Source of the DNA: Maylandia zebra
Lineage: Eukaryota; Chordata; Actinopteri; Cichliformes; Cichlidae
DNA length: 64,000 bases
NCBI RefSeq assembly: GCF_041146795.1
Contig: NC_135174.1
Location: 23,026,878-23,090,877 of the forward strand
Direction: 5' to 3'
The notes below the pieces were generated by a model. It had not been told where the DNA came from. It did no database searches and saw nothing but the letters and a program-made list of their open reading frames with translations. The position numbers and the translations under genes are program-made. This document shows positions 814 to 52,443 of the stretch, one piece after another (position 1 is the stretch's first letter; the number at the start of each line of letters is the position of its first letter).

Positions 814-1053
814 GATACAGCTGCCTGCTGCTGGATTGAGGACTGATAAGAGTTTGATCAGTTTACACTGATAAGCTACAGGATACCATGAGGAAACATA
901 AACCTGCAGAAAAAAAAGATTATGTTGAAGCTACTGACTTAAGAGTATTTCTTTTGTTATTTTTGAGTGTTATGTTTTGTCACATACACTCCCATTCATT
1001 CGGTACACACTGCTTGTATTAAGTTGAACCATCTTTGTATTTAGAAGAGTCTC

Positions 1054-1145
1054 AATTTCTCATGGCATAGATTAAACAAGCTGCTGGAAACATACTTTTG
1101 TGATTTTAGTCCATATTGATGTGATGGCATCGCAATGTAGTGTTT
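1054..1145 (-). mobile_element. Tc1-like fragment
   Basis: GCATAGATTAAACAAGCTGC, followed by GTCCATATTGATGTGATGGC, matches the 3' part of the Tc1 family seen at 14483-14875, minus strand. Confidence 0.5.
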
Positions 1146-1318
1146 CATGTCCACTTTAAGGTTTACATAACAAAATGCTCAAAAATGACATCTTTCACAG
1201 TAAATTTCATCATTCTTTCCCGTGTAAAACAAAACTCCTAATACACATTATTTATGCTGGTTCTCAATTTTTAAGCGGATGACTTTACGACAATAACTTG
1301 ATAAGGTAGTGCAATTAC

Positions 1319-1939
1319 TGTCATGACCTGGGTCTAGGGACCCAGGGCTCATGTATTTTAGTGTATGTTTATATTTTCCGTGTGGTGTTTTGGTTTTCTC
1401 TCCTTTTTCTCCATGTTTCTCCGTGTGAGCTTCCGGAGGTTTTGGTGTGCTGAGGAGACTGCAAACCCGGAAGCGTTTCTGCTCTAGAGACAGCCACACC
1501 TGCCGCTCGTCGTCCTCTGCCAGCTGCAGCAGATTACGCTCGTCAAGGGAGCAGCATTTAAGACTGTAGCTGAGCTGAGGCCGATGCCGGATTCTTGAGT
1601 CAGAACTCGTCAGTACAGCCGTGGACTTGGTATAAACCTTTGAGAAAGTAGAGTCCCTGCTAACCTGAATGTGTTTGTGTTACCAGGAATCTGGAGCAGA
1701 GTGTGTTTTGGAAGTCACGGTGTGGGAGTTTTTGGAGTCGCCACTGTTTCACCTTTCACGAACATCTGCACTGTGTGGGATTCAGGGAGAATCGCCACAG
1801 GACCACAGTGCCGGGATTTTGTATATAGTTGTGTGTTTTCCACCCGCTGTCAATAAATCCACTGTCCTTCACTAAGAGTCTCGCATTTTGGGCCCTACTT
1901 TCACTGCAACTCCACGGTCTGCCATCGCAGCCCGTGACA
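1319..1939 (+). mobile_element. Solo LTR
   Basis: 621 bases starting TGTCATGACC and ending CCCGTGACA, with an AATAAA near 1853. Flanking bases ATTAC and ATTAT form a near 5-bp duplication. No internal retroelement sequence is adjacent, so this looks like a solo LTR of a Gypsy- or BEL-type element. Confidence 0.6.
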
Positions 1940-4266
1940 ATTATGAGGAAGCTTTTTAAACACTTATTTCACCACCAGATGTTACAGACATTTGAAGTGC
2001 TGTTTACCTCTTAGTCCAACTCTCAAACTCCCCTCCCCATTTATTCCCGTAAGCGGTACATGACACACACAATCTGAAAGTTACAGCAGAGATGCTGCTG
2101 TTAACTTGCTCTTGGTCTTACTGTTAATGTGCACAAGCTGCTGCATGTCTACAGTACATACCCACTAGTATTCTGCATATGGCTATAACATCACCGTAGG
2201 GTATGGCACTGTTGCATAATGCTTTTTCCACATGAATATTCTACACCCAACATATGCTTAAGACTGCACAAAGGAACGTGTTTTCTCTTTGCCATTAATA
2301 ATGTGCTGTTGTTAGAGATTTGCATCTGCCTCAGGTGAGCTTTGCGTTGTGTTGAGCAGCTTTAAAAACAGATTTTTTTTTTTACATGTATCATTGCTAT
2401 TATTAATGCAACATAGCACATCCCTCCCCAGCGTGTGCACACACACAAACACATTCCCATAAAAGTTGCTAAAAGTTCTGAATTTCTTTGATCAGTTGTT
2501 CCAAAGCAATTTTACACTGAAATTACTCCTTTTCAGAAACCATGCTGACTAAATTTCTCTCAGAGTTACCAAGAAACAATCAATAATGTGTAAACTCTAA
2601 AGCTTCATCTTCTGAATGCATTTTTTTTCCAAGCACACTTAAAAAAAACAACTGGGAAAAAAATTGAGCATTAATATTTGAAAAATGTTTTTCTCAACAA
2701 CATATAAAAATCACAAATATTACACATCTCAGAAAATAATATTCAGAGTATAAATATGTATTAGCTAGTCAGTCTGGTTTGTCGCAGTACTCGCTGCAAT
2801 GTTTTATCCCCACTACCTCAGATTTAGATACAAAAGACACATTTGCAAATCAGAATCCAACTCTGCTCGTTCCACAAACACAGACACGTTTCATTGGCTC
2901 AAAAAACACTCATTCTCTCAGTCATACTATAGATATGAGTTATTTCAGTCATTGCAGGTATTATGTTTCTGCGCCTTAGGCAGTCCGCTGTGATTGATAA
3001 CTCAGATGATTACACTTTGCCAATGGGAGATGGGGGAAGAGCAGGATGGGTGAAGGGAGGAAGAGAGGAAAGGAAGGGACATAATGATGCTAATGATAAT
3101 TACAGAATTGCTAATACCTGAAACTTCAGCAAAGTAGCTTTGCCTGCAGTCTTAGCCACAGCAAGATATAATGAACCCACCATATCATCACATTTAGCCA
3201 GTGCATAATATCAGTATAAAGGTAATAGCATACACTATATATTTCACTAAGACTGATGTGGAATTACCACTGGTGATTTTCAAATCAATTAGAAGCCAGA
3301 TGAATCAGTATCATCTAGCTCCCATAAACCATTGCGAACCATTTTTGCAGCATTTTGCTTTAATTGTTTGTGCATGCAACCTTCATTAGGAGGCCACGCT
3401 GACCTCCATATATGCGTTTGACCCTGTATGTCACAGAAACATATGGGCATTCATTTATGGAGAGTGACATTTTAATGAAGACGACCCTTTTTATCACCTG
3501 TGGATTGAGTGGATATGCATGTGTGGCCGTAGTGTTTGTCCAACCAAAAATAGAGCACATAGTACTCACCTGTTATTGCTGTTAGTTGAAAAACTGCTTT
3601 GCCTTTCTGCCTTCTTTTAAATGTATTTTTATTTAATTACTTCCTGTGTGAAATCATTATGTCACACCAAAGGGTGACATAAAATGGGAGGACACACATG
3701 TAATCATGTCTTTACAAAATAGCCTCACTGTCATGTGGCATACTGACAGTTCTTTTGATATTATAGTCAGACAAAGTCATTTTGACAGCACATTTCCATT
3801 TTCTGAACCTACCAGGACACCTGCAATTGTTTTAGCTTTGACTTACCTGGTCCTAGCAGACAATTTTCTAGCCTGTTTGAGATCTAGAACTCTTTTGAGC
3901 CACTTTTTCTCCCAAAAGTGATGTTTCGTTTTCGAATGCCCTCTTAGTTTGCTTGGTACCGTATTCTCCCAACCTTTTAGGCTGACAGCTTCAGACATCT
4001 CCGGTAAAGCTGAAGCCATAAAACCTGTAGCTTTTGCAATATTGCCTCACATTCATTTTCCTTCTTTGCTTGAGGCGATGGGTCGTCTGCACTGATGCTT
4101 ACATGTTCTTTTCTGTGATCTGTTTTCCCTCTTATTAACCTTCTCACTGTCAATCAGAGCCTTTGATGTGTTGTGTCATCTCATACCATCTGGCTGCTGT
4201 GTATAAGACAGGATCGTTTTGAGTGTGCTGCTGCACTGGGAACAATTGGACTGATTTGTGTTTTTG

Positions 4267-4362
4267 ATAAGATAAGATAAGATAATCTGAATTTTAAAAC
4301 TCCCTACTGTCCAAGGATATCAAATAGAAAAGATTAAGTTTAAAAAAAAAAAAAAAAAAAAG
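4267..4362. repeat. (GATAA)n and poly-A tract
   Basis: Four GATAA units at 4267-4287 and a run of 20 A at 4341-4360. They may be the ends of an old retroelement. Confidence 0.6.
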
Positions 4363-6582
4363 AGCAATAGATACAAGAAAGGATGTGAAAGGATTTCAAA
4401 AATGTAAATATAAATGTAAGCGTAAAGGCATGCATACTCTCCCCTCTAGTGCCACTCTTTAAATTTGCTGCTACAGCTGCTGTGTATTACTCAAGGCTCA
4501 AAACAAACACCAGCAGCCCAACAAATTAGTTTTCCCTGAATTTTTGCTGTGTCACTTTGGCAGCCCTGTCCCGACACCGTGCTTCTATAGCAGCTTGCTA
4601 ATTACTGGACAGGGGCCTGGTTCTCCCAAACCAGACCTGACAGTGTTCTGTGGCACAGTCATAATGTCACAGCAGCTAAATGAAGAAAGTGAAGTCAGTG
4701 AAAAGTCCCTACGGCGTTCCCAGGTGGACAGTCCTGCTGAAAGCAACATGGTCTGTGTGTATGTTGGCCCTTGCGGCTGCTGTCAACATATCCTGCAAAG
4801 TCTGGACATCCTCACCCTCAATGAACTTAGCCTCTGCAAGAAAATTACTAGAGAGAAAAGTCACAGGAAGCACACACACACACACACACAAGCAGAATAA
4901 TGTATCTGAGCATGGCAGCATGTGTGGCCTGTGTGTATATTAGCTTGTGTGTTTGTTTCTTTTGATGGGATCTGGCTGTGTTCTCTGTTACTACATGTTT
5001 GTGTTTGTTGTTGTGTGAATGACTCACTGCGACCTGGTGTCAGTCACACTCCAGCAGCAGCAACAGGCTGATAAACATCTTCCAATTACCAAGTCTGAGG
5101 TCGGGCAAACCAAGAAACATGCATACAAACACAAAAAAACCACATATTGGGCTTAATCAAAGCTTTTCTTTTAATATTGTTGCATCCAAATGACCCGTCC
5201 CTGCTATTGGCACGTCTTAATTTGTGCAGCAGAGGTCAAATTAGCATCCTGCAGGGTTAGAATATGCAGTGGAAAGACTTTAAATCTGCAGGTATAATGT
5301 AATACCAAGCGGTGAGCAAAAATATCTATGGCAGTCTGTTTTTCAGTGAGATAAATCAATAGGAATACTCTGTTAATCCACCCACCTATTTCGTACAGGG
5401 TGTAGATGGGATAGATATGAGACAGGATTTAATACAAAAATTTAATATAAGACAGATTTCTGTTGAAAGTGTGATTAATATACATTTTATATAGTCAGTA
5501 GAAAAAGCTCATCAGTTTAATTGAGACAAGGTGAGGCTTAAAGAGAGCTGGATAACTCGGCTCTCAAAGAAAGGGGACGAATCAAAGACAGCACAGGGTC
5601 GGATAAAGGAGAATAATAACGGTGCGAAAGCAGGCGAGGATGACAGAGAGAAGATGAGGCTTATTAACGGAAGGTGGAGAGGAGCTGTTTTTGTGCCACT
5701 CTGTGCCAGAACCGCTCCGACCAGTCCCCCTGTTTTGGCTGGCAGATGGGTCTTGTCATGGTGCCGCCTGAAGGATGGTGTGCCATGCCGACGCCTTCCC
5801 GGGTAACACACACACATTCACACACACTTTCACAATGTTGTCTGGCAATTTCGCTTCCTTTTTTGCCAGAATGGCCACAGCCCTGACAGATTGAGAGCAA
5901 ACAGGCAGGCAGGCAATCAGCTCAGACACCTGAGAGCGCCCTGAGGACCCTCACTCTCGCTGGCAGCCAGAAGGAACTGCTGGCTACACTGCAAAACACC
6001 AATTAGGTTCTTAAAAAAAAAGTGCCAATAATAGACCAATTAAAGGACTATTACTGAGTAATGAGAGGAATGATACCTGTTAGGTCTGAACCAGCCAGAA
6101 TCAATAGAGATAAAGCAGACGCATCATGTGAGCACTGCTGTTTTATAGGACAGCCACATGTTGCTCAGCCACTGAGGTTGTACTGACAGGGCACAATGAC
6201 AATACAAAGGGTTGCAGCTTATTATGATATCTATTTCTACTAATTCTCTTTTATAAGCGAAACCTCCCACCAACCCGAACCCGCACACACACAGGCGAAG
6301 CAGATCTGCCAGAAAATAAACCTTAAATGAAGGCGTTCTTCACAGTTGCAGTGGAGCACATCCAGGGAATGAAGAAAAACAGTGTCGTGCAGAGCAGTGA
6401 TGAAGTGAGCTGCCACTGAATTCCCTTTTCTGTCGTTAAAATACGGTGGACTTCAGAAGGGCACGAAAAAGAACGACTCATAGAGCGAAGACTGCGAAAC
6501 TAAAATTGTTGTGTAATCACTTAACTGTGTGATTACTTTCCATTTCTATCCACTCATGCGGCCTCTCTAGACGGGTGCCTGA

Positions 6583-33177: not shown

Positions 33178-36100
33178 TCAAACGGGTCCAACTGAACCGA
33201 GGCCGCTGGATACAGTCTCGTAACCTACAGACACCAGAGTGAGGACATTACTCTCCACACCATCTGGCTTGCACGGCTCTGCCTGGGTCTCCACAGGTCC
33301 AGAAGCTACAGTTTCCTGTCTGATCTTCTTCTTGGCTCTGATTCGACCTTTGGCTTTTGAAATGAGCTTTCCTTGTTCTTTTTCCCCTCCAGACACCTTA
33401 TGAAGCTTCTCATTGTCCATCGAGCGAGTTTTGCGGTGGCGTCTGCGGACACGGCGCATTTGTGGACCTGAGTCGGCCGGGTCAGATGCTGCGACACCAG
33501 ACAGGATGCGAATCTGCTGTTCAATTACCATAATAATCATGTCCAGTGCAACATCAAGCATTCCAAGACCGAGGCCATGAGTGACGTTGTCGAATGCACC
33601 ACTGTTGACTGGGTCCCTAAAACACTTTCTCATATCCTCAAGATGGTTCCTAGGAGAAAAAGGGAAAGTGTTAATGTAAACTGGTCGCTTAATTATGATG
33701 TTTTATTTTCACAAGCACAGTAACCATGTTATACAGGACCCACAGTAATGAAAGACATACTTTGTTTCAATAATTTTGGACCAGTGTTGAACTGTATTTG
33801 TCTCTGGGATAAGCTGCTTTGCCATGTTGCCATAGTCAATGTAGTCATGGGCAAAATCCTTCATATCGTCACACAGAGCTCTGGTGTCACCTAAAAAATA
33901 AATTAACCAAATAAGCAGCCGAGTCTTTCAAACTCATTATCAATTCCAAACATGGCTTTACACACACACGCCACCCCACACACACACACCTCTAACCTTC
34001 AGTGAGTTTGGAGAAGGACGAGGATACAGAGGTAGTTGTGCTTGGCGTGAGGCCGAGTACATTAAGTGACTCCAGGAGTGTTTTCTTGCTGGCTGGTCCT
34101 CTGCTGACCCGAGTGTACGCTGCCAAAGACCGCAGGGACATCTTTTCTGGAGCCTGCAGACGCCTTTTAATTTCATCATATGAGATGAGATATTTCCCTG
34201 AAATTAGAGCAAAACAGAGGGACATAAATCAGCACAGCAGGATTAGAATGAAACAGCATCTGATCAAATCTGAACAGGGAAATTGTTTTTTAAAATCTAA
34301 CATTTTAAACTGTAAGGGCTAGAATCAAGGAAACATTATACATTTGCTGAATAAATGACTTCAGGGAGCTGTGGCAAATAGAAAGCACAGCCTCTTTGAT
34401 CTCTAAAGTTTTACATATCAGGATATAGGAAAAATGCTCTGATCCTTAGAGTGTCTTAAAAAATAAGCAAACTCTTAGTTTTTTTCTGGGAATTAACAGT
34501 ATAAATATTATTAAACCTGACCATTATTAAGTGTGAGCACCTGTATAAAAGCAGATGTTTTGGGAGTTTGATGGTCTGGAGCATTCAGGTGCACGGTAAC
34601 ACAATGCTAAGAAGGAAAGACCTCAGCAACGGTCTTAGAGAAGCAATTGTTAATGTCCATGGAAAGGGTTACAAGGCCATTTTTAAACTGAGCAATCACA
34701 GAGTCAACCATAAAGTCAGAGGCGAGGTTATCTGCAAAGCAGCCAAGGCCCAAGCACAGGGGCGAATCTATAGAATGGCCCAAAGTCCTTAGACCTTAAC
34801 CAAACTAAAATGGTGTGAACCTTAAGAGAGCTGTGCATAAACAATGACCTGCAGACTTTAGTCAACTAAGCAAAGTTGTAAAGAAGGATAGGTCAGAAGT
34901 AGGGCTGGGCGATATGGCTTAAAATCCATATCGCGGTATAATTTGAAGCATGTGCGGTAACGATATATATCGCGATATATTCTTTTCTTCTGTATAACGT
35001 ATTTTACACACTATAAGGCACACTTAAAATCCTTTAATTTTCTCAAAAATTGACATTGTGCCTTATGTATGAATTTTGGTTGTGCTTACTGACCTCGAAC
35101 CAATTTTATGTTGTACGCGGCGTGCAGAAATCTGTCAAAAATGTTTTAGTACGACTTTGGTAAGCTATGAAGGCGTACCGCTTGATGGATTGCCAGAGCA
35201 TTACGGCTGCCGAAGTCAGGAGCATTGCGGAGTAATCTGAGTCCAAAATAGGCAAACGAAAACTGCGGCATCACTGAGAGTTAAAAACTGTCTAAATTCT
35301 TTCATCTTTAATAAAATGATCAGCGTTGCTGCTTTATCAGGTGTAACAATTAAGTTTAACATCCAGGCATCCATGAAAACAGAATGTTTTAAATTCAATG
35401 GAGTGAGAAGTTAGCAGGAAGTTAGCTCGCTAGTTTCCACCTAAACATGATATAGCATGTTCTGACTGAGAGATTAATGAAAAAATTAAAACATATAGCT
35501 CTGCTATCACTTCCAACATAAATGAAGACAAAAAAGTAAACAGCAGTGACTTTTGTAGGGTTACTGAAATCAGACTAGCTGATATATAATGATGTCCTAC
35601 GTGATCGCTAGCAAAACAGCTACGTTAGCATTAGGGCTGCCACAAACTATTATTTTGATAGTCGACTATTCAGATTATTTTTGCGATTAGTCGACTAATC
35701 AGATCATGCATCCATTGGACCAGCAGTATCTGCTTTTATATAACTATCATTAGCTTACAGCTTTAAGTGTTTAAGGTCTGTGCTAACTAAAAATAAAGAC
35801 AAGATGATAGTTTATTAAATTTTAATGAAATTTACAGATTGTTTCAGTGAAGTTTAATAACTTCTTGCTATCTAAAATATAACAGGACACCGGAGTATAT
35901 TCTCGAGCATCTCACACTTCTGATAATCAGCTGTCTGCTTGATGTTTATTCAGCTGTGTAAAAACTATAACTTTAATTTCAGCCAAACCGATTTACTCAG
36001 GAACAAATAAAATACTAAAAAAAGCCAAACAATAACATTTTTAAATTATCTAAGTGACTTATTCATGTTAAACCTGAGTAGCGAAAGACGGCGGTGGGTT

Positions 36101-41235: not shown

Positions 41236-44200
41236 TCATTTGTTCATAATTTCCAGGTGCTCAATGAGCGGCCTCCAAATCTGATCGAAGTCCTCCAGTT
41301 TGTCATTTATAATGTAGCGGATCCTTTCCAGATGAAGAGTATCTGTCAATACGGAAATCCAGGCTTTCAAGGAGGGCAATTCTTTTCCCTTCCATAGGAG
41401 GAGAATCAGTCTGTTTGCACACATCAGGCCATAGACCAGGAGGGGGATCTGTGTGCTCTTAAGTTTTTTAGATTGTCCCGATAGTCCAATAAGAATCAAA
41501 ATGGGGTCAGGGTCTAACTGCACATCAAAAAGTTTGGGGAAAAAAAAAGAAAAAAACTGAAGCCCAAAAACTCTGTAATTTGGTACACATTACAAAACTG
41601 TGAAGCAGATCAGCTTCTGCACATTGACATTTATCACAGATGGGTGACGTTTCAGGAAATATTCGATGTAATCTGGTCTTCGAGTAGTGCAATCTGTGCA
41701 AAATTTTAAACTGAATTAACCTATGTCGGGCGTTGATAGAGCAGGAATTAACATTACGTAGCCCTTTAGTCCAGATATCATTATGAATTTCTGACCCTAA
41801 TTTCTTTTCCCAAGCTGATTTTATTTTACCTGTATCCTTCTGCCGGAGTGACTGTAATATCTCATATATAGAAGCAACCGCATGCTTTTCTGTTATACAA
41901 TCCGCCAGGCATTGGTCAAGCTTACCTGGAGTTGCAAACTCAAATTGTTGTAGTTGGGACCTTACATAGCTCCTTATTTGAAGGTATCTAAAAAAAAAAA
42001 TCACAGGCTAGTAAATTGTACTTCTCCTTAAGCTGTTGAAATGAAGCAAAAGAGCCCTGAAAATACAGGTGTCCCACATTTCGCAACCCCATTTCCTTCC
42101 AGCGATCAAATGTCCCATCTAAAACTGAGAGGTTGAATGCAGGACTAGCTGTAATAGGTGTCAAAAGCGAGAAGGCTCTGAGTCTATACTCTTTCACGAT
42201 CTGTCTCCAGATTTGAATTGTATTGTGAATAACTGGATTACAGTTGTAGTATGTATTTTTAAAACGAACAGGAGACAATGCAATTGCACCAAGAGAATGA
42301 GGCATACAGTCCTCTCGCTCCATGTCCAACCAACTTCCCATTATAACTGTATCATGTAGCCAATAAGCTATGTATTGCATATTAGCTGCGAAGTAGTAAT
42401 TTTTAAAATCTGGTAAGGCTAGGCCACCATGTATTTTCTCTTTACAAAGGTGGGCCTTTTTTTATCCTGTGGCTCTTGTAGTTCCAGATAAAAGGGAGAA
42501 GGACTGAATCCAATTTTTGAAAAAAATGTAGCATTTAGATACACAGGGATATTTTAAAACAGATATAGGAGTTGGGGGAGACAAATCATTTTGATCGCAT
42601 TCACCCTACCTATCATGGAAAGTGGGAGTGATTTCCAAAATTCAACCTCGTTTTTAAATGTATCCAGAATTCTCACAAAATTGGCTTCATATAATGACTT
42701 GTATGACTTAGTAACTTCAATTCCAAGATATGAAAATTTCTCCGACGTTATTCTAAAGGGAAGACGATTTAGTAAATCAAGATTACTGCATTTAATTGGC
42801 ATCAGTTGGCTCTTCCCCCAATTTACTTTGTAACCTGAAAAAGAGCTAAATAAATCTATTGTTACGAGCACCTTAGGGATTGAGTCTAATGGTCTGGTTA
42901 CAAACAGCAGAATATCGTCAGCATACAGTGAGATCTTATTAGAGGTGTATCCTGCATTATAGCCATGTATTTCTTTATGTTTCCGAATTGTTTCTGCCAA
43001 CGGCTCTAATGCGAGGTCAAACAATAAAGGGCTCAGCGCATATCCTTGTCTTGTGCCACGAAATAGCTTAATTGGTTCGGAAAGGGTATTGTTTGTGAGT
43101 ATTCTGGCACACGGATTACTATATAACAATTGAATCCAGGAAACAAATTTAGGTCCAACTCCGAACTTACTTAATACTGCATATAGATATGACCATTCGA
43201 CACAGTCAAAGGCCTTTTCTGCATCAAGGCTCAGTATCACTAGGTCTTTATCTGGATCCCTAGAGGAATAAATAATGTCAAAAAGACGTCTCAGGTTATA
43301 AGATGCATGTCTTGCTGGGATAAACCCTGTTTGATCTGGGTGAACCAGTTTACCTATGTGAGAACTAAGTCTCCTGGCTAAAGACTTGGCCAGTATTTTC
43401 TGATCTGTGTTCAATAAAGAGATTGGTCAGTTAGAACTCACCAATTCTGGGTCCTTTCCGTTCTTTGGAATGAGAGTCACAGTTGCTTCATTCAGAGTCT
43501 GCGGGAGTGCACCATCTTTCAAGGCCATATTAAACATTTTCAGCAAATATGGGGTTAGTAAACTGCTAAACTTTTTATAAAACTCATTACATAGACCATC
43601 AGGTCCTGGGCTCTTCCCGTTTTTCAGGGAGCGTATGATATTAATCAATTCTGGACATGTTAAATCTGCATCTAGAAGTGTCCTGTCCTTTTGTGCCAAT
43701 GTGGGCAAGTTACATTTGCTTAGAAAATCCTGCATAATTTCAGGAAGTGCATTACACTGAGATGTATATAACTGTTCATATAACTGTCTAAAAGCAGTGT
43801 TAATATCCTTACAAGAATTAATCAACAACCCTGAGTCTGACCTGATTCCATGAATAGCCCTATCACTTTCTCTCTTCCTTAGATGCCTGGCCAGTAATTT
43901 ATGTGGCTTATCGCCAAATTCAAAATAGGTCTGCTTAACATACATGAAAGCCCTGGAAATTTTAACTGAGAGTAAGTTATTGAGTTTATATTTCAGAGCT
44001 GATATTTTACTATGTAGCTGTACAGATGGTTGTCTGGCATTCACAGAGTCCAATTTTTGTATTTGAACCTCCAACTGTATGCGTTCCATGTTATTACGTT
44101 TTTTCTCAGACGACTGAAAAGAAATTACACAGCCTCTAGCATATGCTTTAAACGTCTCCCACAATAACAGAGGTGATACATCATCTTTGTCATTCATCTC

Positions 44201-45058
44201 AAAAAACAACTTGATCTGTTCTTCCAGATAATTGCAGAATGTTTTCCTCGTAAGAAGTTGAGGGTCTAATCGCCAGTGTTTATAATTACCACCTGATTCC
44301 AGTAAATTTAGTGAAATAGACACTAGGCTATGAGCTGATATAAGGATATTATGATATTTACTACTCTGGACTCCATGTAACAGTTTACTATCTAATAGAA
44401 AGTAGTCTATACGGGAGTATGTATTATGAACCCCAGAGTGAAAGGAATATTCCCTTCCGGTTGCATTCAACGTTCTCCAAACATCCACAAGACCCAAATT
44501 ATCAATAAACGATTTCAGAAACCTAGAAGCATTCGATGGCGCAATTCTTTGAGCTGACGACCTGTCTAGATAGGTATCTAAAACTAAATTAAAGTCTCCC
44601 CCAGGTATCAAGTTTGTAGTTGAAATATCCGGGATCAAGCTAAACATTTTTCTAAAAAACTCTGGGTCATCCCTGTTCGGGCCATAGACATTTAGCAATG
44701 TGATTGGTATAGACTGAATTTCTCCTACCACCATGATATATCTCCCCTCCTTATCTGCCAGGGTCGATTTATGTATGAATGGCACATTTTTACGAATAAT
44801 TATTGCTGTACACCTTGCCTTTGCGAAAAACCTTGAGTGATAAACCTGCCCTATCCACTTAGCTGTAATCCTGCAATGTGCATCATTTTTAAGATGGGTC
44901 TCCTGATAGAAAATAACATCTGATCTCAATGACTTTCGGTATGCCAACACCTTACCACGTTTTATTGGTTCATTGATGCCATTCACATTCCAAGAGCAAA
45001 AGGTTACAAGCCCTCTCCTGTTCACCCCATCATTTCCATCACCATCTATTGAGGCCAT
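41236..45058 (-). pseudogene. LINE ORF2: endonuclease and reverse transcriptase, degraded
   Basis: The frame begins at 45058 on the minus strand. The apurinic-type endonuclease shows SWNVNG, QETHL, NVYGPN, GDFN and SRIDYFLL. The final SDH motif reads SAH, so a catalytic Asp may be lost. The reverse transcriptase shows GPDGLCNEFYK, GFIPARHASYNLRRL, LSLDAEKAFDCVEW, GTRQGYALSPLLF and the catalytic YADDILLF. The frame is closed by TGA at 43427-43429 (where CGA, Arg, is expected before PISLLN) and TAA near 42554 (CAA expected). It shifts again near 42520, 42460, 41990-42000 and 41535-41550, each time at a run of A or T. The last segment ends at 41236. Such decay makes the copy inactive. Confidence 0.92.
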
Positions 45059-46184: not shown

Positions 46185-46190
46185 CTCGAG
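46185..46190. repeat. Target-site duplication of the composite element, left
   Basis: CTCGAG, matching 52438-52443. Removing one copy and the element restores the ORF1 reading frame (Leu-Glu-Gly-Cys), which independently supports the boundary. Confidence 0.85.
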
Positions 46191-46212
46191 TACGGTGTAC
46201 ATTTTAGGACAT

Positions 46213-46487
46213 TGTCAGGTCTCAAGAAAAAATTGTCAGGTCTCAGTTCTCAAAAAAAAGGTTGTCAGGTATCAGACAAAAAGTTGTCAGGTCTCAGTTC
46301 TCAAAAAAAATATTGTCAGGTATCAGAAAAAAAATTGTCAGGTCTCAGTTCTCAAAAAAAAAAGTTGTCAGGTATCAGACAAAAAATTGTCAGGTCTCAG
46401 TTCTCAAAAAAAAATTTGTCAGGTATCAGAAAAAAAATTGTCAGGTCTCAGTTCTCAAAAAAAAAAAGTTGTCAGGTATCAGAACAC
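46213..46487 (+). repeat. Subterminal tandem array, left arm of the outer element
   Basis: Eleven copies of TTGTCAGGT(C/A)TCAG. After the first, two forms alternate strictly: a long one (GTCTCAGTTCTC then 8-11 A) and a short one (GTATCAGA then C and A-run). The composite period is about 50 bases. It is inverted relative to 52219-52420. Confidence 0.9.
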
Positions 46488-46659
46488 AAGGTACCAGAGA
46501 GAAAATCTTCCTGCAGGTGGCGGTGTTGTCATGTCCCACCCGAATTGATTTCCAAATACGTCATCAACGTGTGACAGTGGGAGAGCGTAAGGTCATTGAC
46601 CTCACCGGAGTTTTACCGCAGTTCAGGCTCCTAACTACGGTGGCCCCTAGAGACAAAGC

Positions 46660-46968
46660 ACGTACAAACTCCAAAACACTTGCAAACTCCAAAACACTTG
46701 CAAATTCCAAAACACATGCAAACTCCAAAACACTTGCAAACTAAAGAACACTTGCAAATTCCAAAACACGTACAAACTCCAAAACACTTGCAAAATCCAA
46801 AACACTTGCAAACTAAAAAACACATGCAAATTCCAAAACACGTACAAATTCCAAAACACTTGCAAAATCCAAAACACGTACAAATTCCAAAACACGTACA
46901 AATTCCAAAACACGTACAAATTCCAAAATACTTGCAAACTCAAAAACACATGCAAATTCCAAAACACA
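46660..46968 (+). repeat. 18-bp tandem array, left arm of inner element
   Basis: About 17 copies of CAAA(C/T)TCCAAAACAC(T/G)T(G/A) and variants (CAAACTAAAGAACAC). The period is a multiple of three, so frames stay open across the array on both strands. Confidence 0.9.
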
Positions 46969-47017
46969 ATGGAAGTGCTCTAGGACGCTAGGGGCAGTGT
47001 TGAGCTTTTGTTACCTA

Positions 47018-48667
47018 GTAACTACACAAGCCAGGAAGTACCAATGACCGGATTTGGGGTTTGCAGCCTTAAAGGCCGCATTTTAAGGCCGATTACGTCA
47101 CAGCGACAAGAGAAGGCTTTCCCAATTCAAAGGCTGCTCAAAATGCGGCCCTCAAATGCGTTCATAATTTCCCTGAATTTTAAGGATGGGTCGGTGTAGC
47201 CTTCATGGCCCAACATATCCCAGACTTCATAGTGCGGTGGTGGTGTGGATAATTTTGCCGAAAAAAAAACGGTGGAAGCGGAGCGGAGGAAGAGTAAACT
47301 TTCAGAAGTAAGTACTGAATATTATGTCACTTATTTATGCGCAAATATTTTTTTAATGAAGAACATTAAACCATTATTGTTGGCCACATGTCGGGAAAGT
47401 TATGTGACATTAGTCATGTCTGTACTATCAGAATTAACTTGGTTTTAAAGCCTTTACTTTAAAAAATATATATATAGTCGACCTTAATCTTACAGAGATT
47501 GTGATGATTTTGTGGATAATTAAAGTCAGTCATATATCCACAAACACAACAAGCTGAAAGTCAGTGATGCTGCTCGGTTTGCAGTCCTGAATAGCACAGC
47601 ACAAGGAGGATTCACTGCACTGTTAATGTTAGCTATGTTATATTGCTGCCTCTGTTCGGTGGTGTCGAGCCAAACGGACTTTAACGTGTGTTTGAACGAG
47701 CTGACGGTTCACTTGTTAAGCTGAAAGAAAGATGCTTTAATCGCAGGAGTCACACATGTGTCCACTGTACCATCTGGGAACTCCTCTTGTTTCGTAATAA
47801 CACAAACACTAAATCCTCCTTCTTTTGTGCTGTTTTGTAGCAGTGTATACACCTGAGACTGTCACCTGTCTGTCTGTCCTGCACTCGCTCTCTGTTTCTT
47901 TCTCTCTGATTGTGGAATAAAAGTATGAACATGTGTTTATAAGTCACACTTGTGTTTGAATCCTGCAGCTTATCACACATTTGATTTCCATGTGTGACAA
48001 CTGCAAGTGTCCAGAGTGAGGACAGACTGAGGGACACACTGCTGCACATCATCTGTGAGGCTTTGCACCCCTGATGATCCACCAGGACAAACTCAGCAGT
48101 GTGTGAGGAAGAGTAGGAGGAAGAGCCAGCAGCAGCTGACAGATGGAGAGAATAGACAGACTGTTCCCTGTTTGTGAAGGACTGCTAGAAAAGTTTAAAA
48201 TAACTAATTGTCTGTCCTGAATCAGTCTTATTAGGTAATGTTCAAATAATTTTATCATTCCAGTGTTTTCAGTGTGGGAGAAAGTACTCAGGGCCTTCAA
48301 GTTACACACTATGAAAGGCAGCAACAAGTGTAATATTCAGAAACCTAAAGTATGTATCAGCAGCAGAATGGACCTAAAAATAAATGTTTGTTCCAGTTCT
48401 ATGAAGCTTTGAGTATTTTGGATCAGTAGCACTGCTGTGTTTGTTGCATCATATTGCTGTAATTGTTTATATGCTTTATTTATTCTGAGGTAAGTTGATC
48501 TATAGAGTTACATCATATTCTATAAGGATGTTATGTGTTTGTAGACTTTCTGCCCAGTTTGACCCATTTAGCAGAAGCCAGCCTGTTTAAGGCTCTGATA
48601 TCTATTCTGTATGACTTAAAGCAGTTATGACATGGGCTGACTTTCTCACCCAATAAAGGAATATTTC

Positions 48668-48670
<3 letters not shown>
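47018..48670. other. Interior of the inner element, left half; no gene recognised
   Basis: Mixed sequence. A short Lys/Glu-rich frame at 47245-47300 runs into a GTAAGT-like donor (CAGAAGTAAGT), and 47750-48330 has exon-like composition without an open frame of note. None of this gives a recognisable protein. Confidence 0.5.
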
Positions 48671-48711
<41 letters not shown>

Positions 48712-48845
48712 GATTGGATTTATATAGCGCTTTTCAAGGCACCCAAAGCGCTTTACAATACCACTATTCATTCACTCTCACATTCATACACTGGTGGAGG
48801 AAAGTTACAGTTGTAGCCACAGCTGCCCTGGGGCAGACTGACAGT
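48671..48845 (-). mobile_element. Retroelement 3' tail with (AAT)n microsatellite
   Basis: A perfect AAT run (48671-48710) borders GGATTGGATTTATATAGCGC and AAAGCGCTTTACA. Read on the minus strand this is the 3' end GCGCTATATAAATCCAATCC followed by (ATT)n, a very common non-LTR retroelement tail in fish. Only the 3' end is present. The exact family is not certain. Confidence 0.6.
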
Positions 48846-50325
48846 CTACTCTTCATTCTATCAGAAACAGTTATCACAGCTTGTACATTTTCTTTTTATA
48901 AATATATGTAAGCAATGAGCCAAATTTAGTAATGCCAACATACTGAAGGAACAACATTTGTCTCTTATATATGATACACCTATATATGCACTGTCAAAGA
49001 TACTTGTCTTTGAGTGAAGATTTAAGGTGATAAGACATGTAAATAACTGCAACTTGAATCTGTACTGAAGCTCAGTATTTGACACAGAGTTCATGTTCAC
49101 TGCTGTAATAGCTAATAATGATTAATATAATAACTATAATATTGGCCATATTATATTTACATTACCAAAGTGATATGACTTTAGTCTCATGAACAACATC
49201 AGCTAATTCTTATTTACTAATTAATCTTGAAATAACTGTTCAGTACAGAAATGAAGCCCAAAAATCATGTTTTACTGTCCTGTGGTCTCAGCCTCAGATA
49301 CTTATCAAATCACACAAAGCTCTTGTAGAAACAAACAAACAAATGAACAAAATATGTTCTCCCTCATTTCTGTCAAACCAAGTTGTATGACACGTTTCCA
49401 GCGGTTAGTATCATGGTTGCTAGGCAACCTGGGAAGCGCGACGGAGACTAGACCGTCCCATCCGATTGTTCAGTCTGACGTCACTAGCCGTGTCTGGGTC
49501 TAAACTCTGCTGCAGGTCCATATATCAAACAATCACTGTGGCATTACTGAGAGTTGAAAAACTGTCTAAAGTCTTTCATCTTTAATAAAATGATCAGCGT
49601 TCTGCTCTACCAGGTGTAACAATTGAGTTTAACATCCAGGCATCCATGAAAACGGAATTTATGACATTTAACGGCGTTAGAAGTTAGCAGGGAGTTAGCT
49701 CGCTAGCTTCTATCTAAATACAATATAGCATGTCCTGACTGCGGGGTTTTGGAAACAAATTAAAACGTACAGCTCTGCTATCACTTCCAGCATAAATGAA
49801 CACAGAAAACTAAACAGCAGTGACGTTTGTAGGGTTACTGAAGTTGGGCTAGCTGGTATATAATGATGTGCTACGTGACCGCTAGCGACACAGCTATGTT
49901 AGCATAATATAAACAAGCTAACTTTCTTTCCACTCGATAAAAGTTAACGTGAGTGTTCTCGGTGGTCAGAAACAAATGTAATTGCATGGCAGGATGCTGT
50001 AAAAGGACTGAGATAATCCATCCACAATACGAGGTTAGTCATTCATATACTGCTGCATGGGCTGGGCTGTAGTTACATCCAAAGGTTTTAAAAACTGAGC
50101 TTACATAAATGATTAGTGGTAATAAAAGCCGAGGGAGGTCAACAGGGATCACTGACTGTTTTAGGAGCTTTTTGAGATCAAATAGAAGAAAATACATAAC
50201 ATTAAACATGTTAACAACAGAAAAGCCATATTAAACGCAGACTACTTTAGACCCGGAAGTAGGATTCGTCGCGTCATCACTGAACAACCGGATACAGACA
50301 AACTTGCCGTTTATTTTGCAAATCG
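48846..50325. other. Interior of the inner element, right half, with a hAT-shared segment
   Basis: About 49525-50050 aligns by eye with 35255-35631 and 36608-36795, the interior of the hAT-like element in the AP-2-like gene intron (shared CATCCAGGCATCCATGAAAA and GATAATCCATCCACAATACG). The rest is not recognised. Confidence 0.6.
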
Positions 50326-50368
50326 AGCTCAACACTGCCCCTAGCGTCCTGGAGCACTTCCGTTGTAT

Positions 50369-51014
50369 TTTGGAATTTGCATGTGTTTTTGAGTTTGCAA
50401 GTGTTTTGGATTTTGCAAGTGTTTTGGAATTTGTACGTGTTTTGGATTTTGCAAGTGTTTTTTAGTTTGCAAGTGTTTTGGAATTTGTACGTGTTTTGGA
50501 GTTTGCATGTGTTTTGGAATTTGCATGTGTTTTGGAGTTTGCAAGTGTTTTGGAATTTGTACGTGTTTTGGAATTTGTACGTGTTTTGGAATTTGCATGT
50601 GTTTTTTAGTTTGCAAGTGTTTTGGGTTTTGCAAGTGTTTTGGAGTTTGTACGTGGTTTGGAATTTGCATGTGTTTTGGATTTTGCAAGTGTTTTGGAGT
50701 TTGTACCTGTTTTAGAGTTTGCATGTGTTCTTTAGTTTGCAAGTGTTTTGGATTTTGCAAGTGTTTTGGAGTTTGTACCTGTTTTAGAGTTTGCATGTGT
50801 TCTTTAGTTTGCAAGTGTTTTGGATTTTGCAAGTGTTTTGGAGTTTGTACCTGTTTTAGAGTTTGCATGTGTTCTTTAGTTTGCAAGTGTTTTGGATTTT
50901 GCAAGTGTTTTGGAGTTTGTACCTGTTTTAGAGTTTGCATGTGTTCTTTAGTTTGCAAGTGTTTTGGATTTTGCAAGTGTTTTGGAGTTTGCAAGTGTTT
51001 TGGAGTTTGTACGT
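50369..51014 (-). repeat. 18-bp tandem array with a 72-bp higher-order unit, right arm of inner element
   Basis: About 36 copies of the same word, inverted. Between about 50690 and 50985 four 18-mers form a 72-bp unit repeated about four times nearly without change; the variant GTACCTGTTTTAGAG recurs every 72 bases from 50703. This marks a recent local expansion that the left arm lacks. Confidence 0.9.
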
Positions 51015-51038
51015 GCTTTGTCTCTAGGGGCCACCGTA

Positions 51039-52204
51039 CGACATAAGGTAAGTTTAAATTTTGTTCATATTTTTGCTACAGTTGTGTTATATTAAGTTGC
51101 GGTTATGTTGTGAAAGTTACATATCAGAGAAGGAAAGCTAGTTTTGTACGAAACCAAATCAGTACTATTTTTGTCTGGCTAATTCATTCTAGCTAGCGAC
51201 AGTGATGAAACGTGATTTTTTTTGTTTTTTATTCGGAGATGTTTCTGTTTTATTAGGAGACTGTCTCACCCCAACATCGTCAGACTCATGGCAGTTGCCC
51301 GCACTGAGTCCTGCTTTTTGTTGGCAGCTGAATACATTCATGGCGCAACCCTGCAGCAAGTGCTTCACACAGACAGCTGCTACTCTTAATAGTCTGTGTT
51401 GTTGAAGGATTCAGCACTTCTTATGTTTTTTTTTAATCCATTTTTAGACAGCGATGAGATCGGCTACACACTCCACAGAAGCCCAGAGTTACTGTTAATA
51501 TCAAAAATATAATGCTGTCCTTTGAGATTTTAACATTTAAGACTGTGAGTGTAATGGATCTAAAACTGTTTAAATCTCTTCAGCCTGGTAACAAGGAAAC
51601 TTTAAAAACAGAAGCAGAAGGTTTCAGTAGTGTAGTCTAATTTGTTCTTTTTATTTAATAATAATCCATATTATGTATAACAGCTACATTCACCCTGGAG
51701 AGAAACTAGTGAGGGAGACCATCAGGACCAAGCTGGGTTTCCTGGGTCCAGAGGTTTGGAGAAACTTCTTCCCTTTCTTTCATCACAGCTGTCCTGTGCC
51801 AGAAGTTCTGTTGACCCACTGAAAGAGGCATCATTTAAGAAACACCAGGAACACTGAAGCTCATCGCATTGATCAAACAGGACTCATGATCTTCACCAGC
51901 AGCTCCCTCACAGGGAAATCTTCAGCACTCCTCCGTAGGCCCGCCCCAGAAGATGGATAAACCCAGCATTTCATGAACACTGTGATGGAGACCTTTGGTT
52001 TGTGTAATGTTACAAATACTCGGATACTCCCCAGAGGCTCCGGACTTTTACATAAAGGTATTATATTCAGTCCTGTAGAAAGTTAAATATTTAAAAAGAT
52101 ATGATCCTCTCTGGTTACTCTGGTATGAATAACTCTGAATCACTTTATACTTTAACCTTTGTATTGTTTTCATCAGTTCATTTTGCAGTTAACATGTGAA
52201 CATG
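51039..52204. other. Right flank of the inner element within the outer element; no gene recognised
   Basis: 1.2 kb without a usable frame. It includes a donor-like CATAAGGTAAGT next to the inner element end and an exon-like stretch at 51680-52010. Its origin is unknown. Confidence 0.4.
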
Positions 52205-52218
52205 GATGACCACCTTTT

Positions 52219-52420
52219 TTTTTGAGAACTGAGACCTGACAATTTTTTTTCTGATACCTGACAATTTTTTTTTGAGAACTGAGACCTGACAAATTTTTTT
52301 TTGAGAACTGAGACCTGACAATTTTTTGTCTGATACCTGACAACTTTTTTCTTGAGAACTGAGACCTGACAATTTTTTGTCTGATACCTGACAACTTTTT
52401 TCTTGAGACCTGACGATGTC
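52219..52420 (-). repeat. Subterminal tandem array, right arm of the outer element
   Basis: Eight copies of the same word in inverted orientation. The alternation is broken once: two long-form words follow each other near 52275-52320, so the two arms have diverged by unit loss or gain. Confidence 0.9.
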
Positions 52421-52437
52421 CTAAAATGTACACCGTA

Positions 52438-52443
52438 CTCGAG
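52438..52443. repeat. Target-site duplication of the composite element, right
   Basis: CTCGAG, the partner of 46185-46190. It encodes Leu-Glu on the minus strand in ORF1. Confidence 0.85.

Follow-up and report, generated by a model that had tools for sequence, protein, structure and literature searches.

Two nested transposons in the window

The window, by which we mean the whole 64,000-nucleotide stretch of Maylandia zebra DNA that was analysed, carries a 6.25-kb insertion (46191–52437) that consists of two elements: a TACGG-type transposon inserted in an outer transposon that is likewise of the TACGG type and measures ∼1.85 kb by itself. The insertion and its immediate borders comprise the following features.

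46185..46190, no strand: left copy of the target duplication, CTCGAG (flank comparison)
46191..46212, plus strand: outer element, left inverted end of 22 bp, TACGG... (perfect match to the opposite end; 103 tips in the genome)
46213..46484, plus strand: left TTGTCAGG array (tandem repeat finder; word counts)
46485..46635, plus strand: remaining part of the left inverted repeat, as far as the inner element (aligned with the long inverted repeats in full-length copies)
46636..51038, no strand: inner element, bounded by perfect inverted repeats of 69 bp, TACGGTGGCCCC... (empty site in relatives; 2,051 ends in the genome)
51039..51217, plus strand: long inverted repeat of the outer element, continued; GTAAGT adjoins the insertion point
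51258..51380, plus strand: partial kinase exon, residues 383–423 (100% identical to P0001)
51382..52204, no strand: stretch common to the short copies L040, L044, L045 and L047 and not in the full-length C11 copy
52207..52415, minus strand: right array, reading CCTGACAA on the plus strand (tandem repeat finder; word counts)
52416..52437, minus strand: outer element, right inverted end of 22 bp
52438..52443, no strand: right copy of the target duplication, CTCGAG (flank comparison)

The outer element is flanked on both sides by CTCGAG, and its tips (46191–46212 and 52416–52437) are perfect 22-bp inverted repeats of the form TACGG..CCGTA. Each tip leads into a tandem array, with 11 occurrences of TTGTCAGG in 46191–46500 and seven of CCTGACAA in 52200–52437; outside the outer element, the window has two occurrences of either word in all. 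A looser form of the word is found 11 and 8 times in the two ends, nowhere else in the element and five times in the 57,753 outside bases. The initial annotation, made from the sequence of this stretch alone, had described the same boundaries, tips and arrays, all of which stand. It had also read the interrupted sequence as the ORF1 frame of a LINE. Joining the flanks with one CTCGAG does restore a single 339-aa open frame on the minus strand; the scanned half of that frame gave no Pfam match, but an endonuclease-domain ORF is present on the same strand (43430–45043).

The block at 51218–51381, which includes the partial kinase exon, matches the full-length C11 copy of the outer family at 98% identity, and for the adjoining 51382–52204 a source sequence was sought and not found. 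A tblastn search of the whole window with the transposase of the family gave no match, in keeping with the earlier statement that no transposase is visible here. The outer element is very probably an internally deleted, non-autonomous IS3EU-type transposon.

Relatives that lack the inner element carry CTCCTAACGACA(C/T)AAGG uninterrupted across the insertion site, the empty site reading CTCCTAACGACACAAGG in C11, C3 and C15 and CTCCTAACGACATAAGG in C14. The initial annotation had treated the 6.25 kb as one composite element; its outer borders were right, but both the separate transposon at 46636–51038 and the piece of kinase exon had escaped it. Enclosure of the entire stretch by the outer ends and their duplication would fit a single composite unit that moves as a whole, yet this is highly improbable, given that BLAST pieces of outer sequence abut directly across the inner site (46635 to 51039) in 17 of 20 fetched loci and that the inner family is abundant on its own, its tip having 2,051 genome matches at ≤3 mismatches (control, 0). 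As for the remaining three loci, the pieces abut within ∼20 bases in L044, another insertion occupies the place in L047, and L048 has no match to the region.

The inner element is 4.4 kb long, with arms built of 18-bp arrays (46636–47006 and 50326–51038), and its family ends in TACGG..CCGTA. No transposase was recognised in it and none was linked to its family; the window holds an ordinary nested pair of non-autonomous transposons. Ten end pairs picked from the inner family showed duplications of 6 bp (four pairs), 7 bp (one) and 5 bp (two, both in AT-rich sequence), or none (three). The window copy shares a single base at 46635/46636 and 51038/51039, unlike seven of ten other copies (5–7 bp). 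This 0–1 bp duplication first suggested a PHIS-type element (Spy, Harbinger), a reading that was dropped because of those seven copies. Pieces of the inner element also occur in other places: 49526–49905 (380 bp) recurs at 35253–35631 of the window with 86% identity, and 47059–47524 and 48909–49461 reappear in L047 within the different insertion there.

Full-length relatives of the outer element

Searching the genome with the left end returned 101 matches, and the outer tip pattern at ≤3 mismatches returned 103 (54 forward and 49 reverse; reversed control, 0). Opposite tips bracket elements of ∼11.3, 9.4, 7.3, 3.3 and 1.0 kb. Many other copies were found in this way, ending at the same bases and including some with coding interiors. 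For 16 elements, chosen from this family of 103 tips by having both flanks within fetched loci, the 6-bp duplication is perfect in 12, agrees at 5/6 positions in one and is missing directly next to the tips in three. The number of tips and the 12 perfect duplications bear out the mobility claimed for the element, while the four of 16 without a perfect duplication count against the explanation proposed below. Position 1 of the perfect duplications is C in 10, position 2 is T in 7, position 5 is A in 7 and position 6 is G in 11.

Six copies are full-length (11.2–11.4 kb; C4, C11, C13, C20, C21 and C22), each matching both a kinase and a transposase, which are the genes recognised in full-length copies; as a rule, cut-and-paste transposons encode hardly anything besides a transposase. 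Their inverted ends are ∼1 kb each and comprise the 22-bp tip and the TTGTCAGG array. In C11, C20 and C4 alike, spliced alignment recovered both genes intact: the transposase has 429 aa encoded by 12 exons and the Ser/Thr kinase 607 aa encoded by 13 coding exons, with GT-AG introns and a stop codon in each. The kinase gene is entered from one end of the full-length element and the transposase gene from the other, so that the two are convergent. In the C11 copy the kinase occupies 947–5502 and the transposase, on the opposite strand, 10302–5732; the start codon of the kinase falls within the long inverted repeat. The initial annotation had supposed that the element is moved by a partner elsewhere, and these six 11.3-kb copies, with an intact DDE transposase in the three that were read, supply one.

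The transposase matches PF24764 (5.7e-33). Its catalytic D139 and D198 are present in 13 of 13 aligned rows and E238 in 12, the other row having a gap (spacing D58D39E), and the HHCC pattern is absent from all 13 proteins. A PDB sequence search with the transposase gave a best E of 0.23. The kinase matches PF00069 (4.6e-44) over profile positions 1–259 of 263, that is, the whole domain, and has the glycine loop, K, E, catalytic D, N, metal-binding D and APE. K360, E377, D455, N460, D474 and E510 are conserved across 12 rows wherever a row has a letter at the position, and HQD and DWG take the place of the usual HRD and DFG. Its N-terminal domain is tentatively assigned as ubiquitin-like (beta-grasp), the fold search for the kinase and the protein search for its N-terminal part covering proteins of 0.55–1.75 times the query length.

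Pairwise comparison of the three full-length copies revealed 0–1 differences in 1,821 kinase coding positions, 1–2 in 1,287 transposase coding positions, and 5–12 in ∼6,350 positions of non-coding interior, with a higher rate of 8–19 in ∼1,800 positions in the repeats. The near-identity outside the ends points to a very recent spread of the outer family.

Shorter copies have lost parts of the kinase gene. The six fetched 7.3-kb copies have one deletion in common, which removes the kinase N-lobe. The C-lobe exon was found at at least 13 places, in the six full-length and seven shorter copies (72 of 300 candidates scored), and the exon for residues 383–424 occurs alone in at least 11 short copies including that in the window (best candidates scored). 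Copies without the N-lobe are as many as full-length ones (seven versus six), which argues that the kinase is not needed in cis. Below these matches, the best candidates scored comprised a few relics and then two matches at 30–31% identity; a host parent gene of the kinase was not found in this genome among the best 72 of 300 candidates, where the next matches are just 30–31% identical. The genome holds many further transposase loci with 30–39% identity to the IS3EU-type one, and among the matches listed for the two proteins, compared by eye, none of these was less than 50 kb away from a strong kinase match. On this ground, the kinase in this genome appears to be tied to the outer transposon family.

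Proposed movement of the outer copy and possible role of the kinase

We propose that the outer copy is very probably an IS3EU-type deletion derivative, mobilised in trans by the DDE transposase that its full-length relatives encode; the kinase would serve the transposon, and the inner transposon was inserted later. The outer element would have been inserted by cut-and-paste, making the 6-bp duplication, and the transposase from the six full-length relatives would move short copies in trans, both proteins presumably being made from full-length copies. The TTGTCAGG arrays would be the transposase binding sites. The kinase would most likely phosphorylate the transposase, or else a host factor that keeps transposition in check or sets its timing, and kinase-deleted copies could draw on kinase made elsewhere in the genome. 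A further TACGG-type transposon has entered the outer copy.

The arrays were present at both ends in 13 of 13 counted elements, with 3–28 words per end. Such variation in number, together with the far longer array at a locus on C19, would also be expected if the words were repeats of a promoter or structural kind whose number simply grows through slippage. The long inverted repeat does contain a 5′ splice donor and the start codon of the kinase, and must therefore hold a promoter. We nevertheless regard slippage alone as unlikely, considering that the words are retained at both ends of all 13 elements, even in a 1.0-kb copy that is barely more than two ends. The C19 locus (L048, ∼796750–798444) has an outer-family tip followed by a TTGTCAGG array of 69 words in the fetched locus, and left-end matches recur there over ∼1.7 kb; TTGTCAGG arrays can grow towards satellite-like length.

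Separate searches placed kinase and transposase homologues on shared contigs in seven other fish species, namely Paramormyrops, Notolabrus (two contigs), Melanotaenia, Coilia, Triplophysa tibetana, Acanthopagrus and Leuciscus, and in the frog Ranitomeya, linkage being judged from listed contigs of the same species and equal length (in Coilia also from neighbouring locus tags). The kinase and transposase matches of Alosa are listed on different contigs, one contig being given per cluster. Between the cichlid (P0001/P0121) and Paramormyrops (P0009/P0122), the kinases are 87% and the transposases 82% identical, which is high for such distant fishes, and horizontal transfer is a possible reason.

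In the separate trees of the two genes, Coilia and Alosa form a fully supported group each time, and so do the two Notolabrus copies. Triplophysa and Misgurnus group with full support in the kinase tree and with 94/87 in the transposase tree, and the cichlid pairs with Paramormyrops in the kinase tree (89/89), a pairing that the transposase tree leaves open. The trees thus appear to agree where they are resolved; many inner branches are open and strict co-evolution is not proven. Two proteins, P0039 (Clupea) and P0040 (Sardina), combine an AIG1 GTPase domain of the GIMAP type with a kinase domain that is 45–47% identical to the transposon kinase; the hosts may have put the transposon kinase, or one related to it, to use.

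The kinase might instead be a passenger that was captured once and is useless to the transposon, its conservation stemming from the recent horizontal spread of whole elements and not from selection. Kinase-deleted copies have indeed been amplified, as the six 7.3-kb copies with one deletion illustrate, and the striking likeness of the cichlid and elephantfish proteins fits recent horizontal transfer. We consider this account rather improbable: the catalytic residues are retained wherever the position is present, even in rows that are just 45–57% identical overall to the cichlid protein, the 13-exon frames are intact in three of three full-length copies, and linkage to the transposase recurs in the other fishes and the frog. 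Among the ways in which the kinase could serve the transposon, it is a real possibility, though one that we hold with reserve, that a lineage of vertebrate DNA transposons has retained a kinase of its own, bearing a ubiquitin-like domain, in hosts as distant as fishes and frogs, and that this functional second gene governs transposition or works against restraint by the host. A catalytically complete kinase that is linked to a transposase in distant hosts, and occurs in near-identical copies in a cichlid, opens to direct testing whether a transposon steers itself or its host by phosphorylation. The findings further suggest that a set of fish database entries with the names of ordinary kinases (MARK-A-like, MAP3K-like, mos-like and others) are transposon genes.

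Comparison with known IS3EU elements

The outer family fits IS3EU by its ends, duplication length and transposase type. According to two papers (PMC10045372, PMC12730594), IS3EU elements have TAYGG..CCRTA or TA..TA ends, usually with 6-bp duplications, and an integrase-like DDE transposase without the HHCC motif; the outer family likewise has TACGG..CCGTA ends, 6-bp duplications and a DDE transposase that lacks HHCC. The initial annotation had offered IS3EU tentatively, and the ends and duplication length do match those published (TAYGG..CCRTA, 6 bp; PMC12730594). Unlike IS3EU as described in the accessible parts of PMC10045372 and PMC12730594, the outer family has array-built ends of ∼1 kb and a Ser/Thr kinase gene.

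The fungal TET-carrying IS3EU elements provide a close parallel. PMC12730594 describes, for all such families, a TET gene between oppositely oriented transposase and alpha-kinase genes. The transposase and kinase genes of the cichlid element are also oppositely oriented, but the fungal elements carry a TET/JBP gene in addition, and their kinase is an alpha-kinase (PMC12730594). Styx (PMC10853768) and Intons (PMC3520738) are multi-gene fungal elements said, in the text available, to derive from IS3EU-type ancestors; in contrast to the cichlid element, they are fungal and have genes of their own, among which that text mentions no kinase.

The literature searched, which lies outside Repbase and most subscription journals, yielded no description of an animal IS3EU element with a Ser/Thr protein kinase. 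Alpha-kinases are a kinase family different from that of the cichlid enzyme. If a vertebrate lineage has indeed kept its own kinase as a working gene, then, with the fungal alpha-kinase, IS3EU would have recruited kinases at least twice, and the superfamily would have needed phosphorylation repeatedly.
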